Positions 11,695-37,360 of a DNA stretch of 42,472 bases are shown here, piece after piece (positions within the stretch are counted from its first letter, which is position 1; each line of letters starts with the position of its first letter). Source of the DNA: Planctomycetota bacterium (lineage in GTDB: Bacteria > Planctomycetota > UBA1135 > GCA-002686595); NCBI GenBank assembly GCA_028823395.1, contig JAPKBO010000008.1, forward strand, positions 1-42,472, read 5' to 3'. The notes under the pieces are model-generated. The model was given only the letters and a program-made list of their open reading frames with translations, searched no databases and was not told the DNA's origin. The position numbers and the translations under genes were made by a program.

Positions 11695-14234
11695 ATTTGT
11701 TCCTTGTACTTGCGCTTGTGGGCGACCTTGGCTCCATGGGCCCACTTGTCGCGCCTAATGCGAGCAGCGTCCACATCGACCAGGTCTGCTAGGTCTTCGG
11801 CACCCTTGGCTCTGGCGAACCGAGCCAGATCGGCGTAGCTGCGGATGCCAGCCTGATTCAGGTCGGCTGCGTAACCGGGACCGATGCCTGTGATGGTCTG
11901 CAGGTCATCTTGGATGCGGGCCTGGGGCGCGGGTGATTTGTCCGCCAGGCGGTTTTGGATCGAAATGGAACTGGGCGCGCCCCCCGATTTGTTCAAAAGC
12001 CGTTCAGCCTGAACCCGGCGTGTGTCGGCATCTTTGAAGCGCACCGTTGCAGCTTGGAGGCGGGTGGCCGTCTCCTTGCAGCGCGCCTCGAGGGCGTTAA
12101 TTTGCACTTGCTGCGTGCTGCGGTCGCGGTCGGTGGTGGAAACTTGTCGACGCAAGTTGCCCAGCTCTTCCTTGCCGTCTTTCAGGTTTGCGGTCAGTAC
12201 TTCGATCCGCGTTTCCCGCGCGTCCACCTGGGTGTGGCTCTTGGTTAGCATGCGGCGCGTGGCTGCGAGGAGCTTGCGTGTTTCAGCCAACTCACTGGCG
12301 CGCGCTTCGAGCGTCTCCAGTCGGCGTTGAAACTTGGCTCGCTCACGGTCGGTGGTCTGCAGCAGGTCCTTGTGGCGGACTTCGCTGCGCTGCAACTCGG
12401 CCTCTTGGGTGGCGACCTGCGCAGGTAGCGGCTCGAGCGTCTCCAAGATGCCCTTGAGATCCTGAACTTCCTGCCGCTTGCGGCGATCGACTTCAGCCAG
12501 CTTGCCGCGAGTTTCCTCAACGAGCTTTTCAGCTTTGTCCACCTGGTTGGGCAGTGCGGCGAGCTTGGTGACCTGTTCGCGCAGGATCGCGATCTCCTTG
12601 GCACTGACCTTCAGATGATGCTGATGTTCCTGCCGGATTTCTCTCAGCTGGGCCTCTCGTTCCACTAGCCGTTCCGGCATCGGAGCGAGGGACGTCAGGC
12701 GCTCGTTGAGTACCGTCGATTCCGCACGTGAGTGGGTCTGGAGATCTGCGAAGCGCTTCTCGATAACCCGCAGTTCGCCTTCACGCTCGGCGAATTGCAA
12801 CTGAACGGGCTCTAGATCATTCACGCGGGAGCGTAGTTGGGCGATGGTCTTCTCGCTGTCCTCAACCAAGCGCTCGTGGCGCTGGTCGGAGGCTCGCAGT
12901 TCGGCCTCCGTGCGGGCCAATTGGGCCGAGAGAGGCTCTAGGAGGTGGTTTCGATCCTTGAGTGCCTGGATCTCATCCCTGGCTCGGGCGGAGTAGTTGC
13001 GATGACGTTCCTCCGTGACGAGCAGGGTCTCCCTGTGCTTACCCAATTCAGCTTCCACCGGGTCAAGCTCCGTGAGGCGAGCGCGCAGGGCGTTGATTTC
13101 CTGACTGCTGGAATCTTCGAGCTCCTCTGCGTTGGTCACGGCCGTGTTCAATTCCTCGTCGCGCTCCGCAAGCAGTGCCGGGTAAGGCGAGAGGTCATCG
13201 ACGCGTGCTCGCAGCGTCTTCAGCTCTTCGTCGGTGGACGTGATCAGATCATCGAGCCGAGCTTGGTTCACGCGCAGTTGCTCTTCTCGCACCTTGACCT
13301 TCTCAGGCAGGTCGACGAGTTCCTCGAGTTGCCCGCGCTGATCTCCAATGAGCTCCTGGCTTGTGCGCTCAAGGTTCACAAACTCCTCACGCAACGTGTG
13401 AAGCTCTTCACCTCGTTCGGAGTCCACTTGGGTGAGTTCGGCGGCCGTGATCTCTGACGTGCTGGCTTTCTCTCGGGCTTCTAGCAGTAAATCTCTGGTC
13501 AGCTGCAGCTCATCCCGACATGCGGCGATTTCCTCGGGCAACGGCTCAAGCACGTTCAGCTGCAGTCGCAACTCTTCGATTTCCAATCCCGATTCGCCTT
13601 CCAGCACCTCGAACCGTTCACGCCATTGGCTGGCCTCGCCCTCGCTTTTCTCAAGCTTGGCGGGCAGGGGTACCAGATTCTCAAGGCGACCCTGCAGCTC
13701 GGCGATGGCGGTGGTCTTGCTGGCCTCCATTGTTGCCAGGTCTCGCTTCGACTTACTCAAGGAGGCCGCATCAAGGTCCTCCCGCGTTTCGTGCGCGCTA
13801 ATACTTTCCTGGGCCTCCTCGCACTGTCCGGCGAGGGCCGCGTGCTCCTGAACCAGCTCCTTGTACACCTCGCTCCGGCGTTCATGCTTCTTGCGCACGT
13901 CTTGGCACTCGCCCTTCAACTCCTGTATGAGCTGGTTCTGGGAGGTCACGGTCTCCTCCAGATGCTGTGCATTGGCAATGCGCGCGGCGGAGCGGCTCAA
14001 GTCCCGTTCAGCTGTGGCTTGGGCCTCCTGGGCGCTTGTCGATTCGGACTTTGCCCGGTTGAGAGCGCCAACCGCTGCTTCGCGATCGCTCTCTGCAAGT
14101 TGGAACTTGCGATCCATCAGCTCCTGCTGGACGCGCCGCTGGCGATGGCCTTGACTGCCGCTGTAGGCCATTCCAATGACAAAGCCGACGAGAGATCCGC
14201 CGGTCAAAAGGAGAAGTGTAGTGACGGGTTCCAT
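11691..14234 (-). CDS. Membrane-anchored long coiled-coil protein with C-terminal helix-hairpin-helix domain
   Basis: This 847-residue protein has three parts. An N-terminal membrane segment ('TTLLLLTGGSLVGFVIGMAY', about 5-24) is followed by a Gln/Arg-rich turn. A long coiled coil runs from about 30 to 745, with a core (about 180-634) built of 42-residue repeats. The C-terminal 70 residues, from 'DLQTITGIGPGYAADL', are a helix-hairpin-helix fold like that at the end of several cell-envelope or DNA-associated proteins (DUF4332-like), with a basic tail 'HKRKYKEQI'. It is probably a rod that spans from the inner membrane and binds DNA or a protein with its tip. There are no partner genes nearby, and function is unknown. 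Confidence 0.82.
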   Translation of the reverse strand: MEPVTTLLLLTGGSLVGFVIGMAYSGSQGHRQRRVQQELMDRKFQLAESDREAAVGALNRAKSESTSAQEAQATAERDLSRSAARIANAQHLEETVTSQNQLIQELKGECQDVRKKHERRSEVYKELVQEHAALAGQCEEAQESISAHETREDLDAASLSKSKRDLATMEASKTTAIAELQGRLENLVPLPAKLEKSEGEASQWRERFEVLEGESGLEIEELRLQLNVLEPLPEEIAACRDELQLTRDLLLEAREKASTSEITAAELTQVDSERGEELHTLREEFVNLERTSQELIGDQRGQLEELVDLPEKVKVREEQLRVNQARLDDLITSTDEELKTLRARVDDLSPYPALLAERDEELNTAVTNAEELEDSSSQEINALRARLTELDPVEAELGKHRETLLVTEERHRNYSARARDEIQALKDRNHLLEPLSAQLARTEAELRASDQRHERLVEDSEKTIAQLRSRVNDLEPVQLQFAEREGELRVIEKRFADLQTHSRAESTVLNERLTSLAPMPERLVEREAQLREIRQEHQHHLKVSAKEIAILREQVTKLAALPNQVDKAEKLVEETRGKLAEVDRRKRQEVQDLKGILETLEPLPAQVATQEAELQRSEVRHKDLLQTTDRERAKFQRRLETLEARASELAETRKLLAATRRMLTKSHTQVDARETRIEVLTANLKDGKEELGNLRRQVSTTDRDRSTQQVQINALEARCKETATRLQAATVRFKDADTRRVQAERLLNKSGGAPSSISIQNRLADKSPAPQARIQDDLQTITGIGPGYAADLNQAGIRSYADLARFARAKGAEDLADLVDVDAARIRRDKWAHGAKVAHKRKYKEQI
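12333..13697 (-). repeat. Tandem 42-residue (126-bp) coiled-coil repeats within the helix-hairpin-helix protein gene
   Basis: Residues about 180-634 of the coiled-coil protein divide into blocks of exactly 42 residues (six heptads), each with a pattern like L-x-x-R-x-x-x-L-x-P-x-P near the block start and an acidic helix after it. Eight or nine blocks are exact: one at 180-221 and a contiguous run at 299-634. One irregular 77-residue (11-heptad) stretch lies at 222-298. The relationship is at protein level; DNA copies have diverged. Counted by hand from the translation. Confidence 0.8.
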
Positions 14235-17277: not shown

Positions 17278-18726
17278 CTAGGATATTGATTCGGGCCGCC
17301 ATGGGGGTGCACAGAGCCGTCTGCGACCGTCGAGGCTCATGAGCACGCCTGCTTCAGGGCCCGGCAGTCTATCCCAGAGTTGGCATGTGACCTCCTTGTG
17401 CCGCTGATCTAGGGCCTCGCAGTAGTTGGTGTAGACGCAGCGTCGCACCTGTTCACCATGGCCCATGCGCATCTTGCGCCACCAATCCGGGTCGGCGAGA
17501 GACTGGCGCGCCGCCGCCACCAGATCGCAAGAGCCACCAACCAGGGCCTCCTCCGCCGTCGTGAAGGTCCCGACACCCCCCGCGCCGATGACTGGAGTGT
17601 TGTATCCCGCTGCGTGCACCGCGGCTCGAATCTCCTTCGCTAGGGCAAGATTGCGCCCAAATGGCCCCACCTCGTCGATGTACACGGTGGGCATGCATTC
17701 GTGACCGCTGGGGCCGGTATAGGGATAGACGGCCTGGCCGACCTTGGGTTGTGCGGCATCTTCGAATTTGCCGCCCTTTGAGATGGAGAGGAAGTCCATC
17801 CCCGCTCGAGCGAAGTGCGTTGCGTATTCGCAGGCATCTTCAATTCTCGACCCTCCCGGGATTACTTCATCTCCCAGCATGCGGCATCCGATCGGGAAAT
17901 CGGGCCCTAGGCGCTCTCGTACAGCGGCGAAGACCTCGAGGGGTAGACGTACTCTCGCCTTGCGACTGCCCCCGTAGCCATCCGTGCGATCATTTGTGCG
18001 GGAGAGGAAGGATGCCATGGTGTAGGCGTGGGCATAGTGCAGTTCGACCCCATCAAATCCTGCGCGCCGTGAAAGGTCCGCTGCATCCGCAAACAATGCA
18101 GGCAGGGTTTCCGGCAGGCTGCGAACGGAGTCGAGGCGGGAGTCCGTAATCCGCTCGCGTGCGCCGTACTGCAGGTCTTCCCACTCTCGCGCCGAGAGCA
18201 CTCCCTCCAGCTCCTCGTCGGGCATTTCGAGTAGGGCCTGGCGCAATGGCGCTTCGTCCTGAATATCCAAGGCCTCACGGTGCCGATCTTGGATCTTGAG
18301 AAAGCGCAGCAGGTAGTCCTCGCGTACAGGCCGCCTGCGCATGTGGAGGAAGTCGATTAGTTGAATGAACAAGCGGGTTTGACCCCCGGAACGGTCCTTC
18401 ACCACTTGGGTGAGTTCTCTCAACCCGGGTAGGAAGCGCTCATGTCCCGCCCTCAGCAGTGGGCCGCTGGGAATGTCGCGAATGCCCGTGGCCTCCACGA
18501 CCAATACTCCGGGCTGGCCCTCGGCGAAACGGCCGTACCACTCAAGGAGCGCGGGCGTCACATGCCCTTCGTCCGTTGCGCGCCAGGGGACCATCGCCGG
18601 AACCCATGTGCGAGAAGACACGGATAAGGGCCCTATCGTGCAGGGCGAAAAGAGGCGACTCCGATTGGCCTGCTCGGCGCTGGGCCAAGGGTGGATCGGC
18701 AGGGGGTGTTTCTTGCGGTCAGCCAA
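17278..18726 (-). CDS. NADH:flavin oxidoreductase, old yellow enzyme family
   Basis: This 482-residue FMN-dependent TIM-barrel reductase is related to 2,4-dienoyl-CoA reductase and the reductase half of 2-aminobenzoyl-CoA monooxygenase/reductase. The substrate-binding strand 'GFDGVELHYAHAYTMASF' has His-x-x-His replaced by His-Tyr-Ala-His, followed by 'LSRTNDRTDGYGGS', and the phosphate site is 'VIGAGGVGTFTTAEE'. An insertion between about 125 and 200 is rich in charged residues. The C-terminal Cys cluster 'CVYTNYC' plus 'EVTCQLW' has three of the four cysteines that bind 4Fe-4S in relatives. The start codon is TTG and uncertain. It is divergent from the SDR operon, sharing a 123-bp spacer. 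Confidence 0.86.
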   Translation of the reverse strand: MADRKKHPLPIHPWPSAEQANRSRLFSPCTIGPLSVSSRTWVPAMVPWRATDEGHVTPALLEWYGRFAEGQPGVLVVEATGIRDIPSGPLLRAGHERFLPGLRELTQVVKDRSGGQTRLFIQLIDFLHMRRRPVREDYLLRFLKIQDRHREALDIQDEAPLRQALLEMPDEELEGVLSAREWEDLQYGARERITDSRLDSVRSLPETLPALFADAADLSRRAGFDGVELHYAHAYTMASFLSRTNDRTDGYGGSRKARVRLPLEVFAAVRERLGPDFPIGCRMLGDEVIPGGSRIEDACEYATHFARAGMDFLSISKGGKFEDAAQPKVGQAVYPYTGPSGHECMPTVYIDEVGPFGRNLALAKEIRAAVHAAGYNTPVIGAGGVGTFTTAEEALVGGSCDLVAAARQSLADPDWWRKMRMGHGEQVRRCVYTNYCEALDQRHKEVTCQLWDRLPGPEAGVLMSLDGRRRLCAPPWRPESIS

Positions 18727-18849
18727 GGGTCTAGAGGAGCGGGGGGCGGGCTCCGGGGCATGAGGCTATCCCCTGCGACCACCTCTTGGCGCAAGATTCA
18801 CCGAAGATCGAGGCGTGAGCCCAGGTCCCTGCCTTACTCTGCCCAAGTC
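18727..18849. promoter_or_regulatory. Divergent promoter region between OYE reductase and SDR-RidA operon
   Basis: This 123-bp spacer separates divergent genes assigned to the same pathway, so promoters for both directions should lie here. The ORF-track start at 18691 overlaps the OYE gene and is rejected. I could not identify a clear -35/-10 pair or operator palindrome. Confidence 0.3.
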
Positions 18850-19662
18850 ATGACCTCAGACCACGTAGCCTTGGTGACCGGAGGAGGAGGGGGCATCGGT
18901 GCCGCCACCTCCCTGGCACTCGCCGGAGCGGGTGCCACGGTCTTGGTGAGCGGCAGGGATGAGCTTCGCTTGCAGGCCTGCGTTGATGCGGTGCGCGCTG
19001 CAGGGGGCGTGGCCTACCCCTTGAGCCTTGACGTTTGTGATGAAGGGTCCATCCGAGATGCTCGCCAAAAGGCGTTGGATCTGGTGGGTCCGGTGGATTG
19101 GGTCGTGGCCAACGCGGGTGTGGCTATTAGCGCGGCTCTCACAAGCGATGAAGTGGAGTCCGTGGCTCAGAAGCAGATGGACGTGAACTACCATGGTGCG
19201 CGACGAGTCTTCGAGGCATTTTTGCCGCACATGCTACAGCGTGGACAGGGGCGCGTCGTGATGGTGGCCTCATCCGCGGCTCTGCTGGGCTACCCCTACA
19301 TCACCGGCTATGCGGCATCCAAACACGCACTCTTGGGTTATGCGCGGTCTGCGGCACTCGAAATGAGGAGCAAGGGCGTGGGGGTGGGGGTGGTCTGCCC
19401 GCACTACGTTGACACGCCCATGACCGACGCCAGCGTGGAGCACATCGTCAACAAGACTGATCGCAATCACGACCAGGCGCGAGCAGCCTTGGCCGATCTC
19501 AACCCTGGGGGCAAGTTGGTGCAGGCCGATGAAGTGGCCCGTGTCATTCTGCGCCTCTTGCAGTCCGACTCCAGCGGTGTTGTTGTTGAATTGACCGGGT
19601 CTGAGCAGCGCGAAGTCGAGAGCGGTTTACCCCTCGTGCCCAACACTCCGAAGGGAGACTGA
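18850..19662 (+). CDS. Short-chain dehydrogenase/reductase (SDR)
   Basis: This 270-residue classical SDR would oxidise or reduce a hydroxy/keto group with NAD(P). ATG 18850 gives the standard N-terminus 'VALVTGGGGGIGAATS' (dinucleotide motif), whereas the longer ORF start at 18691 adds 53 unrelated residues. Other motifs are 'VVANAGVA' (NAG), the catalytic Ser in 'VMVASSAALLG', and 'YAASK' (Tyr and Lys). It leads a run of genes with RidA next (5 bp later) and then enoyl-CoA hydratase and acyl-CoA dehydrogenase genes. In an aryl-CoA pathway it would act on a hydroxyacyl-CoA intermediate; this role is inferred from context. Confidence 0.92.
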   Translation: MTSDHVALVTGGGGGIGAATSLALAGAGATVLVSGRDELRLQACVDAVRAAGGVAYPLSLDVCDEGSIRDARQKALDLVGPVDWVVANAGVAISAALTSDEVESVAQKQMDVNYHGARRVFEAFLPHMLQRGQGRVVMVASSAALLGYPYITGYAASKHALLGYARSAALEMRSKGVGVGVVCPHYVDTPMTDASVEHIVNKTDRNHDQARAALADLNPGGKLVQADEVARVILRLLQSDSSGVVVELTGSEQREVESGLPLVPNTPKGD

Positions 19663-19667
19663 ACCTC

Positions 19668-20081
19668 ATGCAAATTGATCCGATCCAACCCCCCGGGTGG
19701 GTAGCGCCCAAGGGATATTCCAATGGCATGCTCGTCACGGGCGGCGGTTCGATGCTGTTCATTGCGGGCCAGGTGGCCTGGGATGCGCAACAGCAGTTAG
19801 TGGGGGAAGGCGACTTCGTGCGCCAGTTCACCCAGGCTCTCGAAAATGTTGCGAGTGTGCTGAGGGAAGCGGGTGGGCTACCGGAGCACATCGTCAGGAT
19901 GACCCTCTACCTCACGGACTGCGGGACCTACTTGGAGCATCAGAAGGAGGTTGGGGCGGCCTACCGCTCAATCATGGGCAAACACTTTCCCGCCATGTCG
20001 GCTGTCCAGGTTGCGGCGCTGATGGAACCCGGCGCCTTGCTCGAAATTGAAGCCACGGCTGTATTGCCCGCCACCAAATAG
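19668..20081 (+). CDS. RidA family (YjgF/YER057c/UK114) deaminase
   Basis: This 137-residue member of the RidA family hydrolyses imines/enamines or deaminates amino-unsaturated acids (for example 2-aminomuconate in a paralogous subfamily). Typical features are 'FIAGQVAWDAQQQLVGEGDF' (the GQ-x-x-x-D turn), 'ALENVASVLREAGGLPEHIVRM' and the ending 'LMEPGALLEIEATAV' (with Glu in place of the more usual 'lp..g..veie'). A ribosome site AAGGGAG precedes ATG 19668 by about 9 bp. The canonical active-site Arg that stacks with the imine is not obvious, so it may belong to a non-archetypal RidA subgroup. Its place among CoA-ester genes suggests deamination of an amino-CoA intermediate. Confidence 0.88.
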   Translation: MQIDPIQPPGWVAPKGYSNGMLVTGGGSMLFIAGQVAWDAQQQLVGEGDFVRQFTQALENVASVLREAGGLPEHIVRMTLYLTDCGTYLEHQKEVGAAYRSIMGKHFPAMSAVQVAALMEPGALLEIEATAVLPATK

Positions 20082-20084
20082 ATC

Positions 20085-20912
20085 ATGAACCCCAAGCACT
20101 TTGATTATTCCGAGGCCGATGGGGTGGCGACCCTGCGTCTCAATCGTCCCGAGCGTCTCAACGCCCTTACCTTTGATTCCTATGCCGAGTTGCGGGACGC
20201 ATTTTTGGCACTGAGGACCATGGACTCTGTGCGCAGCGTCCTCTTGACAGGAACTGGCCGCGCTTTCTGCTCAGGCGGGGATGTGAAGGACATCATCGGC
20301 CGCTTGTTTGAGGTGAGCGATGCTGAACTCCTCGCCTTTACGCGGATGACCTGCGACCTGATCGAGAACATGCGACGGCTAGAAAAACCCGTGGTCGGCG
20401 CGTTGAACGGGACAACCTGCGGAGCCGGAGCCGTCATGGCCTTAGCGTGCGATGTGCGTATTGCTTCCGATGAGGCCAAGATAGCTTTCCTGTTCACCAA
20501 GGTGGGTCTTTGTGGTGCCGACATGGGAGCTGCGTGGCTTCTGCCACGGGTTGTCGGACTTGGCCACGCGAGTGAGTTGCTCATGGGAGGCCAATTTATT
20601 TCTGCGGAACGCGCGGCACAAATCGGCCTCTACAACAGGGTCGTTCCCAGCGGAGACCTAGAAGAACAGGCCGGTGAATGGGCGCGAGAGTTGGCCGCTG
20701 GCCCAAGCATGGGGCTGGCCATGACCAAGCGCATGCTCAATGCCGAGGCCCACATGGATCTTGCGGAGGCCATGCAAACGGAAGGCTGGATTCAGGCCGA
20801 GTGCATGAAGCACCCCGACTACCGCGAGTCTTATGAGGCCTTCACCGGAAAGCGACCCACGGACTTCGTGCAGAACTACCCCGGCCATGGGGCCCAGGGG
20901 GTGCAGCGGTGA
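20085..20912 (+). CDS. Enoyl-CoA hydratase/isomerase family protein
   Basis: This 275-residue crotonase-fold protein has the CoA-binding and oxyanion elements 'SGGDVKDIIGR' (the A-F-C-S-G-G-D loop) and 'GTTCGAGAVMALACDVRIA'. The region usually carrying catalytic Glu residues reads 'LCGADMGAAWLLPR', so one or both acids are replaced. This pattern is similar to the enoyl-CoA hydratase-like member that I associate with aerobic 2-aminobenzoyl-CoA clusters. It starts 3 bp after RidA and its stop overlaps the acyl-CoA dehydrogenase GTG start by 4 bp. The likely role is hydration or ring-hydrolysis-type chemistry on a non-aromatic CoA ester, inferred from context. Confidence 0.9.
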   Translation: MNPKHFDYSEADGVATLRLNRPERLNALTFDSYAELRDAFLALRTMDSVRSVLLTGTGRAFCSGGDVKDIIGRLFEVSDAELLAFTRMTCDLIENMRRLEKPVVGALNGTTCGAGAVMALACDVRIASDEAKIAFLFTKVGLCGADMGAAWLLPRVVGLGHASELLMGGQFISAERAAQIGLYNRVVPSGDLEEQAGEWARELAAGPSMGLAMTKRMLNAEAHMDLAEAMQTEGWIQAECMKHPDYRESYEAFTGKRPTDFVQNYPGHGAQGVQR

Positions 20913-22021
20913 GTGCCTTGCGGGAAGAGGTGCGAGCGTTTGCGAGTGCTGCGGAGGCCGCGCTGGAGGCGGCGCCGGACGAAGCGTCTGCCGCTCGCCT
21001 AGCCCTCGAGATGCTGGCTGGCGCAGACCTCTTGAAGCATGCCGTGTCGGCACCCGGTGGAAGCCCGGTCTCCGTTTCGGCCCTATGCGACGTGCGTTAC
21101 GAACTGGCTCGTAGCTCGGGCATGCTGGACGTGATGTTCGCCATGCAGGGATTGGGGACCTGCCCCCTTGCTCTCGCGGGTTCCCTCGATCAGTGCGAAG
21201 CCGTCCTACCCGGTGTCCTCGCAGGTAGGGACGTGGCCGCCTTCGCTTTGACTGAACCGGAAGCAGGCTCCGATCTTGCCGGTGTAAGCACTCGGGCCGA
21301 GGCAACCTCGGGTGGCTGGGTGCTGAACGGCCACAAGACCTTTATCAGCAACGCCCCCCTGGCGGATGTGTATACGGTTCTAGCGCGTACGGCCAACGAG
21401 CCCGGTGACAAGGAGGGGCTATCTATGTTTCTGGTGCGCGGCGATGCGCCAGGAATTCGAGTAGATGGGTTCGAGGTCATGGCACCCCACCCCATTGGGG
21501 ATGTGTACTTCAGCGACGTTGAACTTGGTCCGGGCGCGCTGATTGGCGATGAGGGAGCAGGCATGGCTTTGGCTCTTGGCACGCTTGGGCACTTCCGTAC
21601 GTCCGTAGCCGCAGCGGCCTGCGGCATGGCTCGGCGCGCCCTCGACGAATCACTCCGCCACCTTCAAACCAGACAACAGTTCGGCCGACCCCTGTCCAGT
21701 TTTCAGGGGCTGCGCATGGACCTAGCGGAGATGGATACTCGGCTGCGGGCGGCGGAACTTCTCGTAGCTGAGGCGGCAGAGGCCGTGGGGCGCGGTGAGG
21801 CGGCCGTACGTGAAGTCGCTCGAGCCAAGCTCTTCGCTACCGAGGCCGCGGGTTGGATCTGCGACCGCGCCGTCCAACATTTGGGTGGATTGGGCGTCAA
21901 ACGTGGGCAAATTGTCGAACGCCTGTATCGCGAGGTGCGAGGCTTGCGAATCTATGAGGGAACGAGCGAGGTCCAAAAACTGATCTTGGCCAAGGCAGCC
22001 TTGGAAGACGCTAATTCCTGA
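20909..22021 (+). CDS. Acyl-CoA dehydrogenase
   Basis: This 370-residue FAD-dependent acyl-CoA dehydrogenase starts at a GTG overlapping the previous stop by 4 bp, a translational-coupling arrangement. Family motifs are 'FALTEPEAGSDLAGVS', 'GWVLNGHKTFISNA', the arginine-rich 'QTRQQFGRPLSSFQGLR' and the catalytic-base region 'RIYEGTSEVQ' near the C-terminus. The N-terminal helical domain is normal but short. Substrate is not deducible alone. Gene order with SDR, RidA and hydratase suggests an early oxidation of an alicyclic CoA ester or a beta-oxidation step. A 194-bp gap follows, with no feature that I can identify. Confidence 0.94.
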   Translation: MSALREEVRAFASAAEAALEAAPDEASAARLALEMLAGADLLKHAVSAPGGSPVSVSALCDVRYELARSSGMLDVMFAMQGLGTCPLALAGSLDQCEAVLPGVLAGRDVAAFALTEPEAGSDLAGVSTRAEATSGGWVLNGHKTFISNAPLADVYTVLARTANEPGDKEGLSMFLVRGDAPGIRVDGFEVMAPHPIGDVYFSDVELGPGALIGDEGAGMALALGTLGHFRTSVAAAACGMARRALDESLRHLQTRQQFGRPLSSFQGLRMDLAEMDTRLRAAELLVAEAAEAVGRGEAAVREVARAKLFATEAAGWICDRAVQHLGGLGVKRGQIVERLYREVRGLRIYEGTSEVQKLILAKAALEDANS

Positions 22022-22215: not shown

Positions 22216-22629
22216 ATGCCCAGATTCCAACGGCACATCTTTACGTGCATCCATGAGCGTTCCGAAGGCAGCCCGCGTGGGTGCTGTGCGGCGAAGGGAA
22301 GTGAAGACGTGGCGGCGGCCCTGAAGGCGCAACTCCATGGGGCTGGGCTGCGGCGGATCGTGCGAGCCAACAAGTCGGGATGCTTGGATCAGTGCTCCCG
22401 GGGGACCACCATGGTCGTCTACCCCGAGGGCGTTTGGTACGGAGGTGTCGGTTTGGGAGACGTGGATGAGATTATCCAGCGTCACATCATCGGAGGGGAG
22501 ATCGTCGAGCGGCTTGTGATCCCCGATGAAGAACTCACCGGCAGACCCCTACCGTCGGAGGCCCAAGCAGCGGAAAGGGCCGAACTGAAACCACTGGAGC
22601 TGGACGGGCTCTTGGACTCCAACGACTAG
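22216..22629 (+). CDS. Thioredoxin-like 2Fe-2S ferredoxin
   Basis: This 137-residue protein has an N-terminal thioredoxin-like ferredoxin domain. The four expected ligands are C11 ('IFTC'), C23 or C24 ('RGCC'), C56 ('KSGC') and C60 ('LDQC'), matching the Cys-x(10-12)-Cys ... Cys-x3-Cys pattern of the Shethna/2Fe-2S family. The later 'VVYPEGVWYGGVGLGDVDEII' is the conserved beta-strand/helix pair. The C-terminal 35 residues are acidic. It starts the second part of the catabolic run, 8 bp before the PaaA-like gene, so it is a plausible electron carrier for that protein; this is inference. Confidence 0.88.
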   Translation: MPRFQRHIFTCIHERSEGSPRGCCAAKGSEDVAAALKAQLHGAGLRRIVRANKSGCLDQCSRGTTMVVYPEGVWYGGVGLGDVDEIIQRHIIGGEIVERLVIPDEELTGRPLPSEAQAAERAELKPLELDGLLDSND

Positions 22630-22637
22630 GACTTCGA

Positions 22638-23354
22638 ATGAGTAGCACTTTGTCTCAGACGCAATCCGCAAACCTCCTGATGCAATTGGTTGAGGGCCAG
22701 GCCTATCGGCAGTTGTTGTTGGGCAACATTCGTGGAGCGGGAATCCAAATGCTCCCCGACGTGCGCGCCAAGGGACGGATGGCCCACGACCTAGAGCACA
22801 GCCTGCGTTTGATGGAGCAGGTGGAGGCCATCCACCGCGAGGTCGGCGGCGTGGAGCTCGTCAGTGTGGTGCGTCCTCGTATTGACCGCGTGCCCATGCC
22901 CGAGTCCCAGCTCGAACTGAGTGTGGCGCTCGCGCTCCTGGGGCGAGCGGAATACGCCGCGGCGGGGGGCCTCGTCGAGAGTCGTCATGAGGGCCTTGCA
23001 GCTATTGCTCGCGATCTGGTGGATTCGGTACGCGATGAAGCCGAAGCCCAGGCACGAGCTTTCATCGAGGCATGCACCCATCCCTCTCGCCGTTCCTCCG
23101 CCCAGACCTACTGGAGTCGATGGTTCCCCATCGCTCTGCGATCGTTGGGGCGTCCTCACACACGCCAGGATGACCAAGCTCAAGAGCTTGGCCTGCGAGG
23201 GGTTAGCGCAGGAGAGTGCATTCGCCGGTTCGTCTGTGACGCCGAGCCCATGCGTCGAGCTTGCGGCCTGAATATGCCCTCGCTCAATCAGTTGGGCGTT
23301 GAATTGCCCGAGGACTTGCGCGGGCGGTTCCCGGAGGGTGGACTGCACGCATGA
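22638..23354 (+). CDS. PaaA/PaaC-like ferritin-fold protein (phenylacetate-catabolism family)
   Basis: This 238-residue helical protein resembles phenylacetyl-CoA epoxidase subunits (PF05138 family). The helix 'AHDLEHSLRLMEQVEAI' sits where PaaA has its ExxH iron-ligand helix ('DEAGH' in PaaA). Near the C-terminus 'YWSRWFPIALRSLGRP', followed by 'RRFVCDAEPMRRACGLNMP', matches the PaaA pattern RWWWPA...G...F...P...LGL..P. The first ligand helix reads D51-x-x-H54 instead of ExxH. The later ExxH site is not intact ('DEAEAQARAF'), so di-iron binding is doubtful. The gene overlaps the kynureninase-like start by 4 bp and follows the ferredoxin by 8 bp. It may be an oxygenase subunit, a structural partner or an inactive relative. 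Confidence 0.6.
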   Translation: MSSTLSQTQSANLLMQLVEGQAYRQLLLGNIRGAGIQMLPDVRAKGRMAHDLEHSLRLMEQVEAIHREVGGVELVSVVRPRIDRVPMPESQLELSVALALLGRAEYAAAGGLVESRHEGLAAIARDLVDSVRDEAEAQARAFIEACTHPSRRSSAQTYWSRWFPIALRSLGRPHTRQDDQAQELGLRGVSAGECIRRFVCDAEPMRRACGLNMPSLNQLGVELPEDLRGRFPEGGLHA

Positions 23355-24565
23355 CATCCGTGGAGGAGCCGGAGGACTGGGCCCAGTCCTGGCGCAGTAG
23401 ATTTCCGATCGTCGAGAAAACGACCTATCTCGTGAACCACAGCCTGGGCGCCATGCCCATCGGGGTGCGCGACAAGCTCGGCGATTTCATGGACCAATGG
23501 GAGACTCGTGGGGTCCGCGCCTGGGGTGAGGGGTGGTGGAGTGCTCCATCAGATGTGGGCAATCTAGTTGGCAAGATCATGAACGCCCCAGAGGGGTGTG
23601 TGGTCATGCACCAGAACGTCTCTGTTATCGAGGGCGTCGTGGCCTCGTCGCTCGATTTCAGCGGGCCGCGGAACAAGGTTGTTTACAGCGATCAGAACTT
23701 TCCGACCAACATGTACGTCTGGGAGGGGTTCCGGAAACTGGGCGCGCAGATCGAGGTTGTGCCCAGTGACGAAGGCGGGCTTGTCCCCACCGAACGCTTG
23801 TTGGAGGCGATAGACGAAACGACGCTGATCGTGCCCATCAGTCACGTCTGTTTCCGTAATTCCTACCTGCAGGACGCTAAGGCGATCTGTGAACGGGCCC
23901 GTTCCGTGGGAGCGTTGGTGCTCCTCGATACCTACCAATCGCTCGGCACCGTGCCCATTGACGTGCAGGAGCTCGGCGTGGACATGGTCTGCGGTGGATC
24001 GGTGAAGTGGCTCTGTGGCGGCCCGGGGGCTGGCTATCTCTACGTGCGACCGGACTTGCAAGAGGAACTGCAGCCTCGCATTACCGGGTGGATGGCACAT
24101 GCCGACCCGTTTGCTTTTGAGACTGGAGCGCAGAGGTATTCCTCCTCTGCCAGACGCTTCTTACACGGCTCACCAGCCGTAGCGAGCCTGCTGCAGGCTT
24201 CTGCTGGGTACGAGGTCATTTTGGAAGCCGGCGTCGGAGCTATTCGCGATTGGTCACTACGCCTCACGGAAGGGTTGGGGCAGGACATGCTCGAGCGAGG
24301 CTTTGCGATTTATGGACCTCAGACGGGTTCCAAACGTGGAGGAACCTTGACCATTGCGTTGAACGAGGACGAGTCGGGCCCCGCATTCGTGAAGAGTCTT
24401 GAGAGGCGAGGGATTCTTGTGGACCACAGGCCGGGAGCGGGAATCCGGGTCAGCCCACATTTCTACACACTTGAGGATGAGCTTGCCGGGTTTGCGGCAG
24501 CCATGAGTGAGTTGCGATCTAGCCGTGACTGGGAAAAGGATGCCGAGGCGGCGGGCGTCTACTAG
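23351..24565 (+). CDS. Kynureninase-like PLP enzyme (class V aminotransferase fold)
   Basis: This 404-residue PLP-dependent protein most resembles kynureninase (KynU), which cleaves kynurenine to anthranilate and alanine. Matching segments are 'LVNHSLGAMP', 'DQNFPTNMYV', 'LLDTYQSLGTVPIDV' (the region of the PLP-contacting Asp), the PLP lysine in 'GGSVKWLCGGPGAG' and 'GWMAHADPFAFE'. 'FLHGSPAV' and 'VDHRPGAGIRVSPHFYTLEDE' follow in the C-terminal domain. The gene starts on the ATGA overlap with the PaaA-like gene. If it is KynU, anthranilate production next to aryl-CoA genes fits an anthranilate pathway. A desulfurase-like or other class V lyase remains possible. Confidence 0.78.
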   Translation: MTSVEEPEDWAQSWRSRFPIVEKTTYLVNHSLGAMPIGVRDKLGDFMDQWETRGVRAWGEGWWSAPSDVGNLVGKIMNAPEGCVVMHQNVSVIEGVVASSLDFSGPRNKVVYSDQNFPTNMYVWEGFRKLGAQIEVVPSDEGGLVPTERLLEAIDETTLIVPISHVCFRNSYLQDAKAICERARSVGALVLLDTYQSLGTVPIDVQELGVDMVCGGSVKWLCGGPGAGYLYVRPDLQEELQPRITGWMAHADPFAFETGAQRYSSSARRFLHGSPAVASLLQASAGYEVILEAGVGAIRDWSLRLTEGLGQDMLERGFAIYGPQTGSKRGGTLTIALNEDESGPAFVKSLERRGILVDHRPGAGIRVSPHFYTLEDELAGFAAAMSELRSSRDWEKDAEAAGVY

Positions 24566-24588: not shown

Positions 24589-25278
24589 ATGAATGATGAG
24601 GATTGGATTATTGTCGGCGAAGGTGTGCGTGGCGAGTGGCTCTCTTCCCCCGACAGCCAGGTCGCAACTTATCCCCCGGTTCTCTTTGTACGGGACCCTC
24701 TGACGGACACTGCAGATGCTCGCGCGATTGCCCTGGCGTTGGCCCAGCTCGGACGGCGTGTTTTGTGGGTCGATACGGACTCCCTACCTCCCCCGGAGTC
24801 AGCGTCGGATCTCCCTGCGGAGGAGAAGGACCCGCTCTGGGAGCAGGAAGCGGGATACTCTGATCGGCCTGCAGTCCGCGATTTAGGTCTGCTCATTAAG
24901 GCTATGGGAGCTGAGCGCCCTGCCGTGGTGGGAGTGGGAATGGGTGGCACCTGGGCGCTTCTCTTGGGATGCCAGAGTGTGGGCGTGTCTGCCGTGGCGA
25001 CGATCAATGGGCGCCTCGTCTACCCCCGCTTGAGCGCGGCCAAGCCTGTGCAACCCCTGGAGATGATTCTCAACCTAAGTGCGCCCGTGCTGTTCATTGA
25101 TGGCTCAGGGGGGGAAGGAACGGCTGAAGGGCAGACCGAACTGGCATTGGAACGCTTTGCAGCCTTTGGCATTGAGGCCGAGGTGGAGTGGCTTTCTCCC
25201 GACCCGCTTGCGGCCCCGGGTTCAGCGTCACGGGTGGCTGATCGCTTGGACCTCTTTTTGAGTTCTGTCCCGCGCTAG
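24589..25278 (+). CDS. Dienelactone-hydrolase-like alpha/beta protein lacking the catalytic triad
   Basis: This 229-residue protein has the alpha/beta-hydrolase layout of dienelactone hydrolases. The nucleophile elbow reads 'VVGVGMGGTWAL', where active members have 'VGxCMGG' or 'GxSxGG', so Gly replaces Cys or Ser. 'APVLFIDGSGGEGTAEG' replaces the usual Asp loop, and the final segment 'WLSPDPLAAPGSASR' has no His. All three triad positions therefore seem lost. It lies 23 bp after the kynureninase-like gene in the same direction, so it is probably cotranscribed. It may be a binding or chaperone-like protein, or a remnant. Alignment is by eye. Confidence 0.7.
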   Translation: MNDEDWIIVGEGVRGEWLSSPDSQVATYPPVLFVRDPLTDTADARAIALALAQLGRRVLWVDTDSLPPPESASDLPAEEKDPLWEQEAGYSDRPAVRDLGLLIKAMGAERPAVVGVGMGGTWALLLGCQSVGVSAVATINGRLVYPRLSAAKPVQPLEMILNLSAPVLFIDGSGGEGTAEGQTELALERFAAFGIEAEVEWLSPDPLAAPGSASRVADRLDLFLSSVPR

Positions 25279-25303: not shown

Positions 25304-26173
25304 ATGAGCACCACCAGCCTTAGTATCTTCGACCTTCGGCCAGGCAACACCATCCTCGATAGGTTCCTCCTTAGGGCGCCGCTGCGAGAGAACGGTATCG
25401 CTTCTACTTTCGAAGTGGAGGACGCCGATGGCGGTGCCATACGCGAGCTGCAGGTATTCCCTGCAGGCCTCTTTGAGGGTCCCGAACAGGCGAGTGAATT
25501 CGCGGGGAAACTCGAGCCATGGACTCATGTGGAGGTGCCAGCTCTGCAGCAAGTGCACTCAGTTCAGGCTTTGGATGATGGCACCGTTGTGATTCTTGCG
25601 GACCTGCCTGAGGGTCAGGAGCTGCGCGCTCTGATGGAGAGCCAAGACCGGATGGATCCGGGTGATGTGATCTCATTGGTCACCCCTATCTTGAACGGGT
25701 TAGACGTGATCCATGGACAGGGCCTCATTCACGGAGATATCAAGCCGGCGGCGATTTTTAGCTCAGGAGTCGGCGGGGAAGGCCGACTTGTCGATGGGGG
25801 GGTGACCCCCGCGATGTGGGCAGCCAAGCATCTGGGAACCAGAACGGCTTTGATTGGCACTCCGTTCTATGCGCCGATAGAGCAATTCACGGGCGATTCT
25901 CCCGATGAACTGTCTGACCTCTACAACCTGGCGACGGTGATGTATGAAATGTTGACAGGTGTTTTGCCGTGGTCCGGCACCGGCTACATCGAAGTGTTCC
26001 AGTCAAAGATGCAGGAGACTCCGCCCAGCATGTCCCTACGTGCGCCGGACGCTGAGGTTCCACGTGCGTTGGAGGAGGCGGTTGCCAGGGGGCTTTTTGC
26101 GAGCAGGCGTAAGCGCTATCCGTCGGCGGAGGCATTCCTTGAGGGGCTGTCGGAGGCGGTGGCCAAGGGCTGA
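25304..26173 (+). CDS. Serine/threonine protein kinase-like protein, likely pseudokinase
   Basis: This 289-residue protein has a Hanks-type kinase fold without a membrane segment. The catalytic-loop sequence is 'LIHGDIKPAAIF' (the aspartate of HRD, D146, is kept, but the Mg-binding Asn is Ala). The DFG equivalent is 'LVDGGVT' (Asp kept). The beta-3 lysine position reads 'ELQVFPAG' (Gln for Lys), and the glycine-rich loop is degenerate ('APLRENGIASTF'). 'YNLATVMYEMLTGVLPW' is the standard subdomain IX. Loss of lysine and Asn suggests little or no ATP phosphotransfer. It lies 25 bp downstream of the DLH-like gene. Any regulatory role on the cluster is speculation. Confidence 0.8.
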   Translation: MSTTSLSIFDLRPGNTILDRFLLRAPLRENGIASTFEVEDADGGAIRELQVFPAGLFEGPEQASEFAGKLEPWTHVEVPALQQVHSVQALDDGTVVILADLPEGQELRALMESQDRMDPGDVISLVTPILNGLDVIHGQGLIHGDIKPAAIFSSGVGGEGRLVDGGVTPAMWAAKHLGTRTALIGTPFYAPIEQFTGDSPDELSDLYNLATVMYEMLTGVLPWSGTGYIEVFQSKMQETPPSMSLRAPDAEVPRALEEAVARGLFASRRKRYPSAEAFLEGLSEAVAKG

Positions 26174-27597: not shown

Positions 27598-29175
27598 ATG
27601 AGCGAACTTGGATCCCCTTTTGGCCAGGGTTGGCCTGACCGCTTCAACCTCTGCACCTATTTCCTCGACCACAACGTGGACGAGGGTCGAGGGGAGAAGA
27701 CGGCCCTTGTCTGCGGCGATAGGAGTCACACCTATGCCAGCCTGCAGGAGCGCGTGATTCGCTTAACCGCCGCCCTGCGCGAAATGGGGCTCGGCGCCGA
27801 GGACCGCGTCCTGATCGTCCTTCCAGACGATTTGGAGTTCGCAGAGATTTGGTTTGCGACCCTGCGTGCCGGCGGCGTCTTTGCCATGGTCAACCCGCTG
27901 CTGAAGGCCAAGGACTTCAGCTACTACTTGGAATACACCAAAGCCCGCGTGCTGGTGACCGACTCTTCGGTGCTGGCCGAGATTGGTGAGGCAGCTCGCT
28001 CGTCACCGCATCTGCGGGGCGTGCTCGTAGTGGGTAGCGAGGTGGAGGACTTCACCCCTTACGAGGGTGCGATCGCCGCTCAGTCGGAGGATTCCAGCAC
28101 GGGATTTGTGGCGCCTACAGGCCCCGATGACCTCGCGGGTTGGTTGTTTACCTCAGGTTCGACGGGTGAGCCCAAGGCCTGCGTCCACATGCAGCGCGAC
28201 TTTGCTTTTTCGACCGAGACGTTTGCCCTGCAGGTCGCGGGATATAAAGAGGACGATGTATGCCTTTCCGTTCCCAAGTTGTTCTTTGGGTACGCGACGG
28301 GAACGAACCTCATGTTCCCTTTTCGCGTGGGCGCGACGGTCATCTTATTTCCGGAGCGTTCCACGCCCGACGCTCTCTTCGACCTTATCGCCCAACATAG
28401 GCCGACCTTCTTGACCTCGGTTCCGACCCTCATCAACAACATGCTGCGCTCGGAGCGTTGTGATTTGGCCGATCTGTCCAGCCTGCGCGTGTGCCTCTCC
28501 GCCGGAGAGGCTCTGCCGGCCAGCCTGTACGAGCAGTGGATGGAACGCACGGGCGTGGAGATCCTGGACGGAATAGGATCAGCGGAGATGTTCCACATCT
28601 ACATTTCCAATCGCATGGGGGATGTTCGTATCGGGAGCCTCGGCAAGCTCGTTCCGGGGTACGCTGCTGAAATTCTCGGCCCGGATGGCGAGGAGGTGCC
28701 TCCGGGCGAACCCGGCCGATTGCGCATCCGGGGAGGCTCGACGGCGCTTTGCTATTGGGGTGACAAGGCAAAGTCCCATGAGACCTTTCAAGCCGATGCT
28801 TGCACCACCGCCGACATCTTTCGCGTGGACGAAGAGGGTTACTTCCAATACGTGGGCAGGGGCGACGATCTCCTAAAAGTGAGCGGGATCTGGGTGTCCC
28901 CCTTGGAGATCGAGAATGCTCTGCTCGCTCACCCTGCCGTGGATGAGGTTTGTGTGATCGGTAAGGCCGACAATGACGGCTTGATCAAGCCCCAGGCGTT
29001 TGTGGTCTTGGCAGCCGGTCACCCTGGCGATGAAGCTCAGGCGGGGGACCTCAAGGCCCATCTCAAGGAACGCCTTGCCCCTTACAAATACCCACGCTGG
29101 TTCGAATGGTGCGAGGAGCTCCCCAAGAACGACCGTGGAAAGGTCAACCGCAAGCTTCTGAAGTCGAGGGGCTGA
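27598..29175 (+). CDS. Benzoate-CoA ligase family (aryl-CoA synthetase, 2-aminobenzoate-CoA ligase-like)
   Basis: This 525-residue ATP-dependent acyl-AMP/CoA ligase would activate an aromatic acid to its CoA thioester. The opening 'FNLCTYFLDHNVDEGRGEK' resembles benzoate- and aminobenzoate-CoA ligases. The AMP-binding P-loop is 'LAGWLFTSGSTGEPKACVH', followed by 'LSVPKLFFGYATGTNL', which also resembles that subfamily. The C-terminal A8-like 'GRGDDLLKVSGIWVSPLEIE' and A10 lysine in 'PKNDRGKVNRKLLK' complete the fold. It would supply the CoA substrate for the oxidising genes upstream. Benzoate, 2-aminobenzoate or 4-hydroxybenzoate cannot be told apart by eye. It is separated from that operon by two unrelated genes. 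Confidence 0.88.
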   Translation: MSELGSPFGQGWPDRFNLCTYFLDHNVDEGRGEKTALVCGDRSHTYASLQERVIRLTAALREMGLGAEDRVLIVLPDDLEFAEIWFATLRAGGVFAMVNPLLKAKDFSYYLEYTKARVLVTDSSVLAEIGEAARSSPHLRGVLVVGSEVEDFTPYEGAIAAQSEDSSTGFVAPTGPDDLAGWLFTSGSTGEPKACVHMQRDFAFSTETFALQVAGYKEDDVCLSVPKLFFGYATGTNLMFPFRVGATVILFPERSTPDALFDLIAQHRPTFLTSVPTLINNMLRSERCDLADLSSLRVCLSAGEALPASLYEQWMERTGVEILDGIGSAEMFHIYISNRMGDVRIGSLGKLVPGYAAEILGPDGEEVPPGEPGRLRIRGGSTALCYWGDKAKSHETFQADACTTADIFRVDEEGYFQYVGRGDDLLKVSGIWVSPLEIENALLAHPAVDEVCVIGKADNDGLIKPQAFVVLAAGHPGDEAQAGDLKAHLKERLAPYKYPRWFEWCEELPKNDRGKVNRKLLKSRG

Positions 29176-29238
29176 GGGCGAGCAACTGGCCACTGGGAAT
29201 CGCCGCCCGCGCTCCTGGTGAGTAGAATCCTCATACAC

Positions 29239-30012
29239 ATGTCAGAACTCGCCAAACAGACCTGGCCGGAAGCCCAAGAACTTCTCGGTCCCGAGACCGT
29301 GGCTCTAGTGCCTATCGGCAGCACCGAACCCCATGGTCCGCACTTACCTCTGGACACGGATGTGACCATTGCGACAGCCCAGACCTTGCGAGCTTCGACC
29401 CTCCTTGAAGCCAAAGGGGTCAAGACCGTGATCCTGCCCGCCGTCCCTTACGGCGTGACCCACTGGACCCATGGCTTCGCAGGCACAATCACTTTGCGCC
29501 CCGGCACTCTGTGGTCCCTGCTTGAGGACATCGTTGAGAGCCTCGAAGAAGCCGGTGTGCGCCACGTGGTGTTTTCTAATGGACACCTGGAGCCGGGTCA
29601 CATCGAAGTGTTGCGCGGCCTTCCGATGGACTACAAGGAGAAGAAGGAGGGCTCGGCCCAGGTCATTTTCCCGGACAACACACGCCGGCGCTGGGCCGCG
29701 ACCCTAGGCGACGAGTTCAAGGGCGGTGACTGTCACGCAGGTCGCTACGAATCGAGCATCATTCTCAAGGCGGATCCAGAGGGCGTACGTGAGGAGAAGC
29801 GGGTTGCGCTTGAGCCCGTGGAAATCGGACTTGTGGAGCGCATTCGTGGCGGGGCCAAGAGCTTTAGGGAGTGCGGCGCAGACCAGGCCTACTGCGGCGC
29901 ACCCGCTGAAGCGAGTGCGGCTGAAGGGGAAGCCCATATCGAGCAACTAGCCAACATGATCGTCACTTCCATCGAAGAAGCATGGCCGGAACTCTTCGGG
30001 GCGGCTTCATGA
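29239..30012 (+). CDS. Creatininase-family amidohydrolase
   Basis: This 257-residue metal-dependent amidohydrolase belongs to the creatininase family, which includes creatininase, FAPy and formamide hydrolases and mycofactocin MftE. Metal ligands appear in 'PIGSTEPHGPHLPLDTD' (Glu, His, Asp), 'SNGHLEPGH' and 'DCHAGRYESS' (His and Glu). ATG 29239 is chosen; the ORF-track start (29218) is a GTG seven codons earlier. The stop overlaps the thioesterase ATG (ATGA), and the thioesterase in turn overlaps metF, giving a tight three-gene operon. Substrate is unknown. In an anthranilate/kynurenine context an amide or formamide substrate would be attractive but is not shown. Confidence 0.86.
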   Translation: MSELAKQTWPEAQELLGPETVALVPIGSTEPHGPHLPLDTDVTIATAQTLRASTLLEAKGVKTVILPAVPYGVTHWTHGFAGTITLRPGTLWSLLEDIVESLEEAGVRHVVFSNGHLEPGHIEVLRGLPMDYKEKKEGSAQVIFPDNTRRRWAATLGDEFKGGDCHAGRYESSIILKADPEGVREEKRVALEPVEIGLVERIRGGAKSFRECGADQAYCGAPAEASAAEGEAHIEQLANMIVTSIEEAWPELFGAAS

Positions 30013-30449
30013 GTTCATATGACACCATGCTGCAGGTGCGCTTTGGTCACGTGGACCCGGCGGGAATCGTCTATTTCCCCCGTATCTACGATTATCTCCA
30101 TGACGTCTTCGAGGAGCTGTGGGAGAAGCACGTTGGGCAGCGTTATTACCATTTGCTGCTGGAGAAGAAGGTTGGCTTTCCGCTTGTTCATTCGAACGTG
30201 GACTTTAACGCGCCTCTGCGATTCGGTGATCGCCCCCTAGTGAGCGTGACCTGTTTTAAGCTGGGTCGCACCTCTCTGGGATTACGCTACGTCTTCCGTT
30301 TGGGAGAGACCATTTGCCTGGAAGCTAAGCAGGTCACCGCCTGTATAGACGTGGACACTATGAAGCCTGTGGCAATCCCCGATGCGTTCCGGGAGAAGTT
30401 TGCGGAACTGATTGAGGAGGGCGTCGAGATGACGGCGGTCAACCTATGA
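30009..30449 (+). CDS. 4-hydroxybenzoyl-CoA thioesterase-type acyl-CoA thioesterase
   Basis: This 146-residue hot-dog-fold thioesterase starts at ATG 30009 on the ATGA overlap with the creatininase-family stop; the ORF-track start at 29982 lies inside that gene. The catalytic Asp region 'VRFGHVDPAGIVYFPRIYDY' is very close to the 4-hydroxybenzoyl-CoA thioesterase signature, and 'SNVDFNAPLRFGD' is the core helix/strand. It would hydrolyse aryl- or short acyl-CoA thioesters, possibly to rescue free CoA from dead-end aryl-CoA made by the upstream ligase. Its ATGA overlap with metF couples their translation. Confidence 0.9.
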   Translation: MSSYDTMLQVRFGHVDPAGIVYFPRIYDYLHDVFEELWEKHVGQRYYHLLLEKKVGFPLVHSNVDFNAPLRFGDRPLVSVTCFKLGRTSLGLRYVFRLGETICLEAKQVTACIDVDTMKPVAIPDAFREKFAELIEEGVEMTAVNL

Positions 30450-31315: not shown

Positions 31316-32337
31316 GGCGCTTTCAGACAGTCAGCCAGCGTCGCCAGGAAGTGCTTGATCTGGTCCATGGGTGCGACCGTGATGCGAATGTGATCGCGAA
31401 TCCGATCATCGTCGAATCGGCGCACGGCGATTTTGCGTTCCAAGAGCGCGGCTTGAATTGACGCACCCGAGTGCGCGGGGTGCGTGGCAAGTACCCCAAC
31501 GGAATTGGAAGGCAGAACCGAGAAGCCAAGTTTTTCCAAGCCCGTGGCCAGATAGTCACGATTGCCCACGAGTTCATCGCGTAGGGATTCGAAGGAGGCC
31601 TGACGGCGGATGGCTTCCATGGCCATGACCTGGGCCATGGCGTTGACGTTGAAGACGTCTTTCTGAGCCAGCATGCGTGCGATCAGGCCTTCTCCCGCGA
31701 TGCAGTACCCCAGGCGCAGGCCGGCCATGCCGTAGAACTTAGAGAAGCTGCGTACGAAAGCCATGTTGGGCGGCAGGGGTGATGGGATCGAGTCGTGGCC
31801 GTACTCGCCGTAGACGTTGTCCCAGATCACATACGAATTCTCGTCGGCGGCCAACCGCATGAGTTCATCCGTTGGCACGCTGCGACCGGTGATGGCGTTG
31901 GGTGAGTCCACGACGGCGAACCCACTAAATCCGGTTGGGTCTACGTGGCCGGTCTCGAATGCATCACCGGGCAATACCTCTTGTCTGAATCCGAGTCTTT
32001 CGGCCAAGAGGTCGTAGACCTTAAAGCGCACGTCCAACACATGCATGCAGTCGTAAGTTTCATGGAGTACGCCAAAGAGGTCGGAAAGCACCTCATCCGC
32101 GCCGTTACCCAAGAAGACTTGCTCGGCACGTACACCATGGAGTCCAGCGATGGCTGTGCGCAGCGGCATGCAAGTGGCATCGGGATAAGAGGAGATCGCG
32201 GCTTGTTCCACCAGATCTCGTGCGGCATCTACGGCCCATTCGCGTCCCACCAGCAAATTCTCATTGCGATGTAGGCAAAGAACGTCGTCCATCGAAACTT
32301 GAACGCCGGGGTCGTAGGTGGATTTGAAATTGCTCAC
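31312..32337 (-). CDS. HisC-like PLP aminotransferase (class I/II fold)
   Basis: This 341-residue aminotransferase is similar to histidinol-phosphate aminotransferase. Seen: 'LHRNENLLVGRE', 'VFLGNGADEVLSDLF' (PLP phosphate region), 'FAVVDSPNAITG', 'VIWDNVYGEYG' (Asp of PLP N1, Tyr), the PLP lysine in 'SFSKFYGMAGLRLGY' and 'IRDHIRITVAP' (substrate-carboxylate Arg). The start is GTG 32337 overlapping the condensation-protein stop by 4 bp (GTGA), so the two are translationally coupled. That coupling suggests supply of an amino acid to an NRPS rather than histidine synthesis; no other his gene is present. Confidence 0.85.
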   Translation of the reverse strand: MSNFKSTYDPGVQVSMDDVLCLHRNENLLVGREWAVDAARDLVEQAAISSYPDATCMPLRTAIAGLHGVRAEQVFLGNGADEVLSDLFGVLHETYDCMHVLDVRFKVYDLLAERLGFRQEVLPGDAFETGHVDPTGFSGFAVVDSPNAITGRSVPTDELMRLAADENSYVIWDNVYGEYGHDSIPSPLPPNMAFVRSFSKFYGMAGLRLGYCIAGEGLIARMLAQKDVFNVNAMAQVMAMEAIRRQASFESLRDELVGNRDYLATGLEKLGFSVLPSNSVGVLATHPAHSGASIQAALLERKIAVRRFDDDRIRDHIRITVAPMDQIKHFLATLADCLKAP

Positions 32338-33962: not shown

Positions 33963-33999
33963 TCGTAAGAAACCGAAACAGGGGTAAACGCAAACGGCG

Positions 34000-37196: not shown

Positions 37197-37360
37197 TGGT
37201 GTGGCGAGGGACGGCTACGAAGCAAGAGTACCCCGCACGGGGAACAATCCTGAGGGATGATTTCGGCAGCTAGACCTTTTCTACGCTCTGGAAACTGAAT
37301 CTGTTGAGGTGCTTGTCGCCCTAGGCCGGGATATCGTCTAACAGTCACTTTGCTTTGGCC
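37197..37360. promoter_or_regulatory. Divergent spacer between sulfatase and NRPS genes, possible NRPS promoter
   Basis: This 164-bp spacer must hold promoters for both directions. A weak sigma70-like pair on the plus strand is TTGTCG (37313-37318) and TCTAAC (37337-37342), 18 bp apart and each matching four of six consensus bases. A short hairpin CCCC-GCAC-GGGG is at 37231-37242. Neither is decisive. Confidence 0.25.

Follow-up and report, generated by a model that had tools for sequence, protein, structure and literature searches.

A PaaA-like protein that has lost its di-iron site in a planctomycete aryl-CoA gene cluster

The window analysed here is a stretch of 42,472 nucleotides and corresponds to one contig (C261) of a fragmented genome of a Planctomycetota bacterium (G000; 3.8 Mb, 359 contigs, 85% complete). 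It contains an open reading frame of 238 amino acids with an ATG start on the + strand, referred to here as Q. An earlier note had described Q as a PaaA-like protein with altered di-iron ligands in an aryl-CoA cluster, which might be a divergent oxygenase using a different metal site or a non-catalytic partner such as PaaC is to PaaA. The question raised by the locus is what a protein of this fold, with its metal site changed, is retained for among genes of aryl-CoA metabolism.

Fold, family and gene neighbourhood of Q

In single-sequence searches, Q on its own yielded no significant match in Pfam, NCBIfam or the PDB sequences, PF05138 and TIGR02156 included, so its likeness to PaaA is something that such searches miss. 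An alignment of 23 Q orthologues was used for both a profile and a structure model. Structure prediction had been set beforehand as the test on which the PaaA-like character was to stand or fall, and the resulting model (pLDDT 93.7, pTM 0.91) is a ferritin-like bundle, and each of its best 17 Foldseek matches in the PDB is a chain of PaaA or PaaC (lowest E 4.2e-6) rather than a member of an unrelated family. The profile found 4mud and PaaA as best PDB chains, with E values of 0.0018 to 0.06, a range in which a few unrelated chains also fall. PF05138 was matched by 5 of the 23 orthologues (E up to 1; best E 2e-14) and by all 15 relatives in which the metal site is intact (site-intact, see below). 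The same 15 proteins also matched TIGR02156 (PaaA), below its cut-off, and four of them matched TIGR02158 (PaaC) weakly. The site-intact profile aligned to E. coli PaaA at 2.8e-15 with the ligands in register, and when a site-intact orthologue was modelled (pLDDT 94.4), Foldseek ranked chains of the PaaA complex first (E 1.1e-7). By fold and homology, Q belongs to the PaaA_PaaC family, as the earlier note had proposed from the letters. The C-terminal motif on which that proposal drew is more than a chance resemblance, because W162, G171, R172, P173, L186 and P214 are near-invariant across 39 proteins, with or without the metal site.

Q starts 8 bases past the end of a ferredoxin gene and its stop codon runs into the start codon of the kynureninase-like gene that follows (ATGA), so Q is probably translated from the same message as these two genes (Table 1). 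The gene order is SDR, RidA-like, crotonase, acyl-CoA dehydrogenase, ferredoxin, Q, kynureninase-like, alpha/beta-hydrolase-like, kinase, CoA ligase, creatininase-family, thioesterase and MTHFR. An antisense frame at 22791-23357 is mechanical, since constraint follows the + strand frame. No PaaB, PaaC or PaaE gene was recognised beside Q among the main window ORFs scanned. Identity as a heme dioxygenase of the tryptophan 2,3-dioxygenase (TDO) type was rejected, as the TDO gene lies on another contig and the fold of Q is PaaA-like. No relatives were found in viral contigs, and a plasmid search with an intact copy returned, among the matches listed, only PaaA-type proteins at <30% identity. A literature search, with most subscription journals outside its reach, found no paper on the Q family in Planctomycetota. 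Elsewhere in the window are an NRPS condensation-domain protein (32334-34055, - strand), a 1293-aa ORF (37355-41236, + strand) whose start looks condensation-like by eye, and an 847-aa protein (11691-14234, - strand) with only a weak C-terminal helix-hairpin-helix match.

Table 1. Q, its ligand positions and the neighbouring genes in the window
Feature	Position	Strand	Basis or remark
Old-yellow-enzyme-like (OYE) reductase	17278..18726	-	Divergent from the cluster; only C-terminal half of PRK08255/ACMR matched
Short-chain dehydrogenase (SDR)	18691..19662	+	
RidA-family (imine/enamine deaminase-like) protein	19668..20081	+	
Crotonase-fold enzyme	20085..20912	+	PRK08258, above cut-off
Acyl-CoA dehydrogenase	20909..22021	+	
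Thioredoxin-like [2Fe-2S] ferredoxin	22216..22629	+	NF041612/NF041613, below cut-off; Cys ligands kept
Q, PaaA-like ferritin-fold protein	22638..23354	+	Di-iron ligands 6/6 replaced; profiles, model, alignment, dN/dS
Q25	22710..22712	+	PaaA E42 position, helix 1
D51-L52-E53-H54	22788..22799	+	Earlier reading 'DxxH'; out of register, not conserved
S55-x-x-L58	22800..22811	+	True first ExxH position (PaaA E72/H75)
G102	22941..22943	+	PaaA D126 position (helix D)
V131-x-x-E134	23028..23039	+	Second ExxH position (PaaA E155/H158)
C-terminal motif (R161-P173) RWFPIALRSLGRP	23118..23156	+	Kept with or without metal site
Kynureninase-like PLP enzyme	23351..24565	+	TIGR01814, E 5.5e-32, below cut-off
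Alpha/beta-hydrolase-like protein	24589-25278	+	
Eukaryote-type protein kinase	25304-26173	+	
Benzoate-CoA ligase family protein	27598..29175	+	TIGR02262, above cut-off
Creatininase-family hydrolase	29218..30012	+	Conserved in cluster
Hot-dog (4HBT) thioesterase	29982..30449	+	

The six ligand positions and their loss

The iron ligands of PaaA are E42, E72, H75, D126, E155 and H158 (PMC4498308); residue numbers of the PaaA chain in the PDB sequence differ from these by two. In the alignment, the equivalent positions of window Q are Q25, S55, L58, G102, V131 and E134, and none of the six ligands is kept. The ligands are therefore altered, as had been claimed, to a larger extent than the one softened motif and one missing histidine that had been described. 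The DxxH taken for the first ExxH lies four residues ahead of the true position, and the residue at H54 is L, T, H or F in relatives. The helix-1 position is Glu in all 15 site-intact orthologues and Gln in 83% of the proteins that have lost the site (site-lost). Apart from this frequent Gln, the ligand columns of the site-lost family vary freely, and several members have lost two residues from the last ligand helix. The site-intact orthologues, 15 of 15 full-length proteins from other families, keep the whole set (E, ExxH, D, ExxH), without the lysine bridge of PaaA, the K68 position being His and the E49 position Phe as read from the alignment.

These observations bear on whether Q could still catalyse a reaction, with a relocated or different cofactor or with none, a reading which we regard as improbable. 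Strong purifying selection (see below) speaks for it, as do the residues newly conserved in the site-lost clade (N30, a His at position 34, P88, R91 and A155). However, the window genus has Ala in place of the position-34 His, no His or Cys is newly conserved across the site-lost family in the 39-protein alignment, and there is no conserved set of His, Cys or carboxylate residues able to hold a metal. The deletions in the last ligand helix also argue against it, and the step is already supplied by a flavin enzyme, ACMR, encoded elsewhere in the genome. The suggested oxygenase with a different metal site is accordingly not supported.

All 26 sampled Q proteins from the bacterial family of the window genome have lost the site (0/26 intact), and orthologues in many other families came from a phylum-wide search. 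A tree of 42 sequences separates the 26 site-lost proteins from all others by a branch supported at 100/100; their neighbour is a site-intact protein (G039) from another family of the same order, and the stem of the clade is long (1.05 changes per site). The tree was built with the ligand columns left in (6 of 237), and these are unlikely to be the source of the split. All six ligands were lost once, on the stem of this bacterial family. The operon order is the same around the intact copies at L143, L144 and L147 and, read backwards, at L138. No site-intact paralogue was found in genomes of the window genome's family, only BoxB; the window genome itself yielded just one further PF05138-type gene, a BoxB on a different contig, and no PaaA. 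A candidate second Q in G001 (C3, E 8e-4) was rejected, its profile E value being only 0.024 and its ORF an unrelated protein.

The proposal of a non-catalytic partner comes closer to these data, except that no catalytic PaaA-like subunit accompanies Q. We consider unlikely its specific form, in which Q would play the structural role of PaaC towards a catalytic di-iron subunit from another locus, for example BoxB. PaaC chains match the Q model with a TM score of 0.72-0.74 (Foldseek), PaaC is itself a structural partner of PaaA with the same fold (PMC4498308), and a BoxB gene is present in the genome. Yet that BoxB shares a separate operon with BoxC, the nearest relatives of Q are catalytic-type, PaaA-like and site-intact, and the cluster is kept in several genomes where Q is lost. 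Since the site-intact relatives match the PaaA model far more consistently than the PaaC model, a catalytic subunit turned pseudoenzyme fits better than a PaaC orthologue.

Constraint on Q and repeated loss of its gene

Q is under purifying selection and is not drifting, its dN/dS being well below neutral and in the range of its neighbours. In comparisons of the window genome with its two sister species, the ratio is 0.069-0.102 for Q and, in the same species, from 0.03 (crotonase, kynureninase) to 0.21-0.31 (hydrolase) for the neighbours; at larger distances Q reaches 0.17-0.35, similar to several neighbours and nearer saturation.

Most genera of the family retain the gene. It is nevertheless dispensable, having disappeared on at least 5 occasions from clusters that are otherwise intact. 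The ferredoxin adjoins the kynureninase, with Q absent, in five genomes (G007, G014, G022, G024 and G090), and in some other genera the ferredoxin has neither Q nor kynureninase close to it. On a tree of the cluster genes, the presence of Q changes 7 times, at least 5 of them on supported branches. Kynureninase is found in 23 of 25 loci with Q versus 6 of 15 without it (Fisher p 0.0007, from counts made by hand that treat loci as independent of kinship, some loci being cut by contig ends).

Repeated loss, together with the disappearance of all ligands and a long-range divergence faster than that of the neighbours (35-44% versus mostly 60-75% identity, in a cluster mostly kept around Q in about 20 genera), could be taken to mean that Q is a decaying pseudogene without function. 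We consider this very improbable, because the frame is open in all full-length copies sampled, dN/dS between sister species is about 0.08, thirteen near-invariant positions are common with the catalytic clade, and the gene retains its translational overlap with kynureninase.

The pathway, the flavin enzyme and known systems

The aryl-CoA context of Q is borne out by its conserved neighbours. The window cluster combines a CoA ligase with the RidA, crotonase, acyl-CoA dehydrogenase and SDR set, and resembles clusters for tryptophan/anthranilate breakdown. An anthranilate route via 2-aminobenzoyl-CoA is known from Azoarcus evansii (PMC4539516). The CoA ligase, RidA, OYE and kynureninase genes point to 2-aminobenzoyl-CoA (anthraniloyl-CoA) as the most likely substrate, judging only from the neighbouring genes. 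TDO, on another contig in the window genome, is encoded beside kynureninase and Q in G039. The creatininase-family and alpha/beta-hydrolase-like proteins travel with the cluster, and either could be the N-formylkynurenine hydrolase; the protein kinase is kept in the cluster in most genera of the family, Q-less ones included. The OYE-like reductase, which has an extra stretch in its barrel region, is also present in Q-less genomes and is thus not tied to Q.

The cysteines of the ferredoxin are kept with and without intact Q. The same ferredoxin family directly follows BoxB, on its 3' side, in two other families of the order (L220:2801-6117 and L221:3094-4969), which suggests that it serves di-iron epoxidases. 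At L220 a NuoF-like gene comes after the ferredoxin (translations read by eye), and in both loci the genes that follow BoxB may possibly provide an alternative electron chain to BoxA. As the ferredoxin persists where Q is gone, it has another job and is not there for Q alone. The BoxB of the window genome (contig C289, L081:12-3139, - strand; TIGR03225, 746 bits) forms one operon with BoxC (766 bits), beside a divergent gene in which an HTH regulator is fused to a shikimate-kinase-like domain, BoxR-like by reading.

ACMR is the 2-aminobenzoyl-CoA monooxygenase/reductase. It is missing from the window cluster itself. Contig C85 of the same genome encodes a full-length ACMR of the PRK08255 type, which at 1068 bits scores narrowly below the cut-off of 1078, and the idea that Q and the ferredoxin make up a missing monooxygenase of this genome was dropped on that account. 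Among 28 Q-bearing genomes of the window family, ACMR is full or near-full in 24, fragmentary in 2 and not found in 2, both site-lost and possibly affected by gaps in the MAGs. It lies on the Q contig in two genomes (G006 and G338), 20-28 kb away, and in G006 between the ligase and creatininase genes. Among the 15 genomes with fully intact Q, ACMR is absent from 10 and present in 5, all from one family (f21) whose loci differ in layout and contain a more distant OYE; these five indicate that both can coexist. Because the site was lost only once, the link with ACMR is a single event, a consistent story outside statistical testing.

We favour, with a probability of roughly 0.7, the explanation that Q is a metal-free pseudoenzyme, an accessory left behind after the flavin ACMR took over hydroxylation of the anthraniloyl-CoA ring. 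The ancestor of Q would have been a small stand-alone PaaA-type di-iron aryl-CoA oxygenase, as it still appears to be in other planctomycete families, oxygenating an aryl-CoA ring, most likely that of 2-aminobenzoyl-CoA made from kynurenine, with electrons presumably from the neighbouring [2Fe-2S] ferredoxin; the OYE-like reductase, RidA, crotonase, acyl-CoA dehydrogenase and SDR would have finished the pathway. Ring hydroxylation would then have passed, in the window genome's family, to the bifunctional flavoenzyme encoded elsewhere. In the simplest history, this takeover released Q from catalysis and the ligands disappeared after it, with Q retained in a non-catalytic accessory role, probably through binding to the aryl-CoA or to a protein of the cluster.

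Site-lost Q would accordingly be a pseudoenzyme branch of the PaaA_PaaC family, and its site-intact sisters look like an uncharacterised stand-alone oxygenase. More tentatively, and at somewhat less than even odds, these sisters may constitute an undescribed class of stand-alone di-iron 2-aminobenzoyl-CoA oxygenase working with a thioredoxin-like ferredoxin and a separate OYE, a non-homologous counterpart of ACMR that was displaced by it in one family and kept there as a selected metal-free pseudoenzyme. Intact, dead and lost copies within one conserved operon provide a clean before-and-after series for an aryl-CoA oxygenase. Should anthraniloyl-CoA prove to be oxygenated by the intact copies, they would represent a second, unrelated route to the key step of the Azoarcus evansii pathway; should the dead copies act as partners, they would parallel a way in which a PaaC-type subunit could derive from a PaaA-type one.

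Compared with known systems, Q has in common with PaaA (TIGR02156, PF05138; PDB 3PVR, 3PWQ, 4II4, 4IIT), the catalytic subunit of the 1,2-phenylacetyl-CoA epoxidase, the fold, the C-terminal motif, the helix order and the aryl-CoA gene context. The site-intact orthologues align with PaaA ligand for ligand, whereas window Q lacks all six ligands and is ~60-70 residues shorter. PaaC (TIGR02158) has the ferritin fold without a working iron site and a length similar to that of Q, but the site-lost clade branches from site-intact PaaA-like proteins and no PaaA partner was found for it. SSO1313 of Sulfolobus solfataricus (PDB 4MUD), the best PDB sequence-profile match to the site-lost family, is like Q a small stand-alone PF05138-like protein, although it has all six ligand residues. 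BoxB (benzoyl-CoA 2,3-epoxidase, TIGR03225) is also an aryl-CoA di-iron epoxidase, with the same ferredoxin type downstream in other families of the order, but it has 470 residues, an intact site and, in the window genome, a separate operon. Finally, the PRK08255-type ACMR, which likely performs the step formerly carried out by site-intact Q and OYE, is a flavin monooxygenase fused to an OYE, with a fold unrelated to that of Q.
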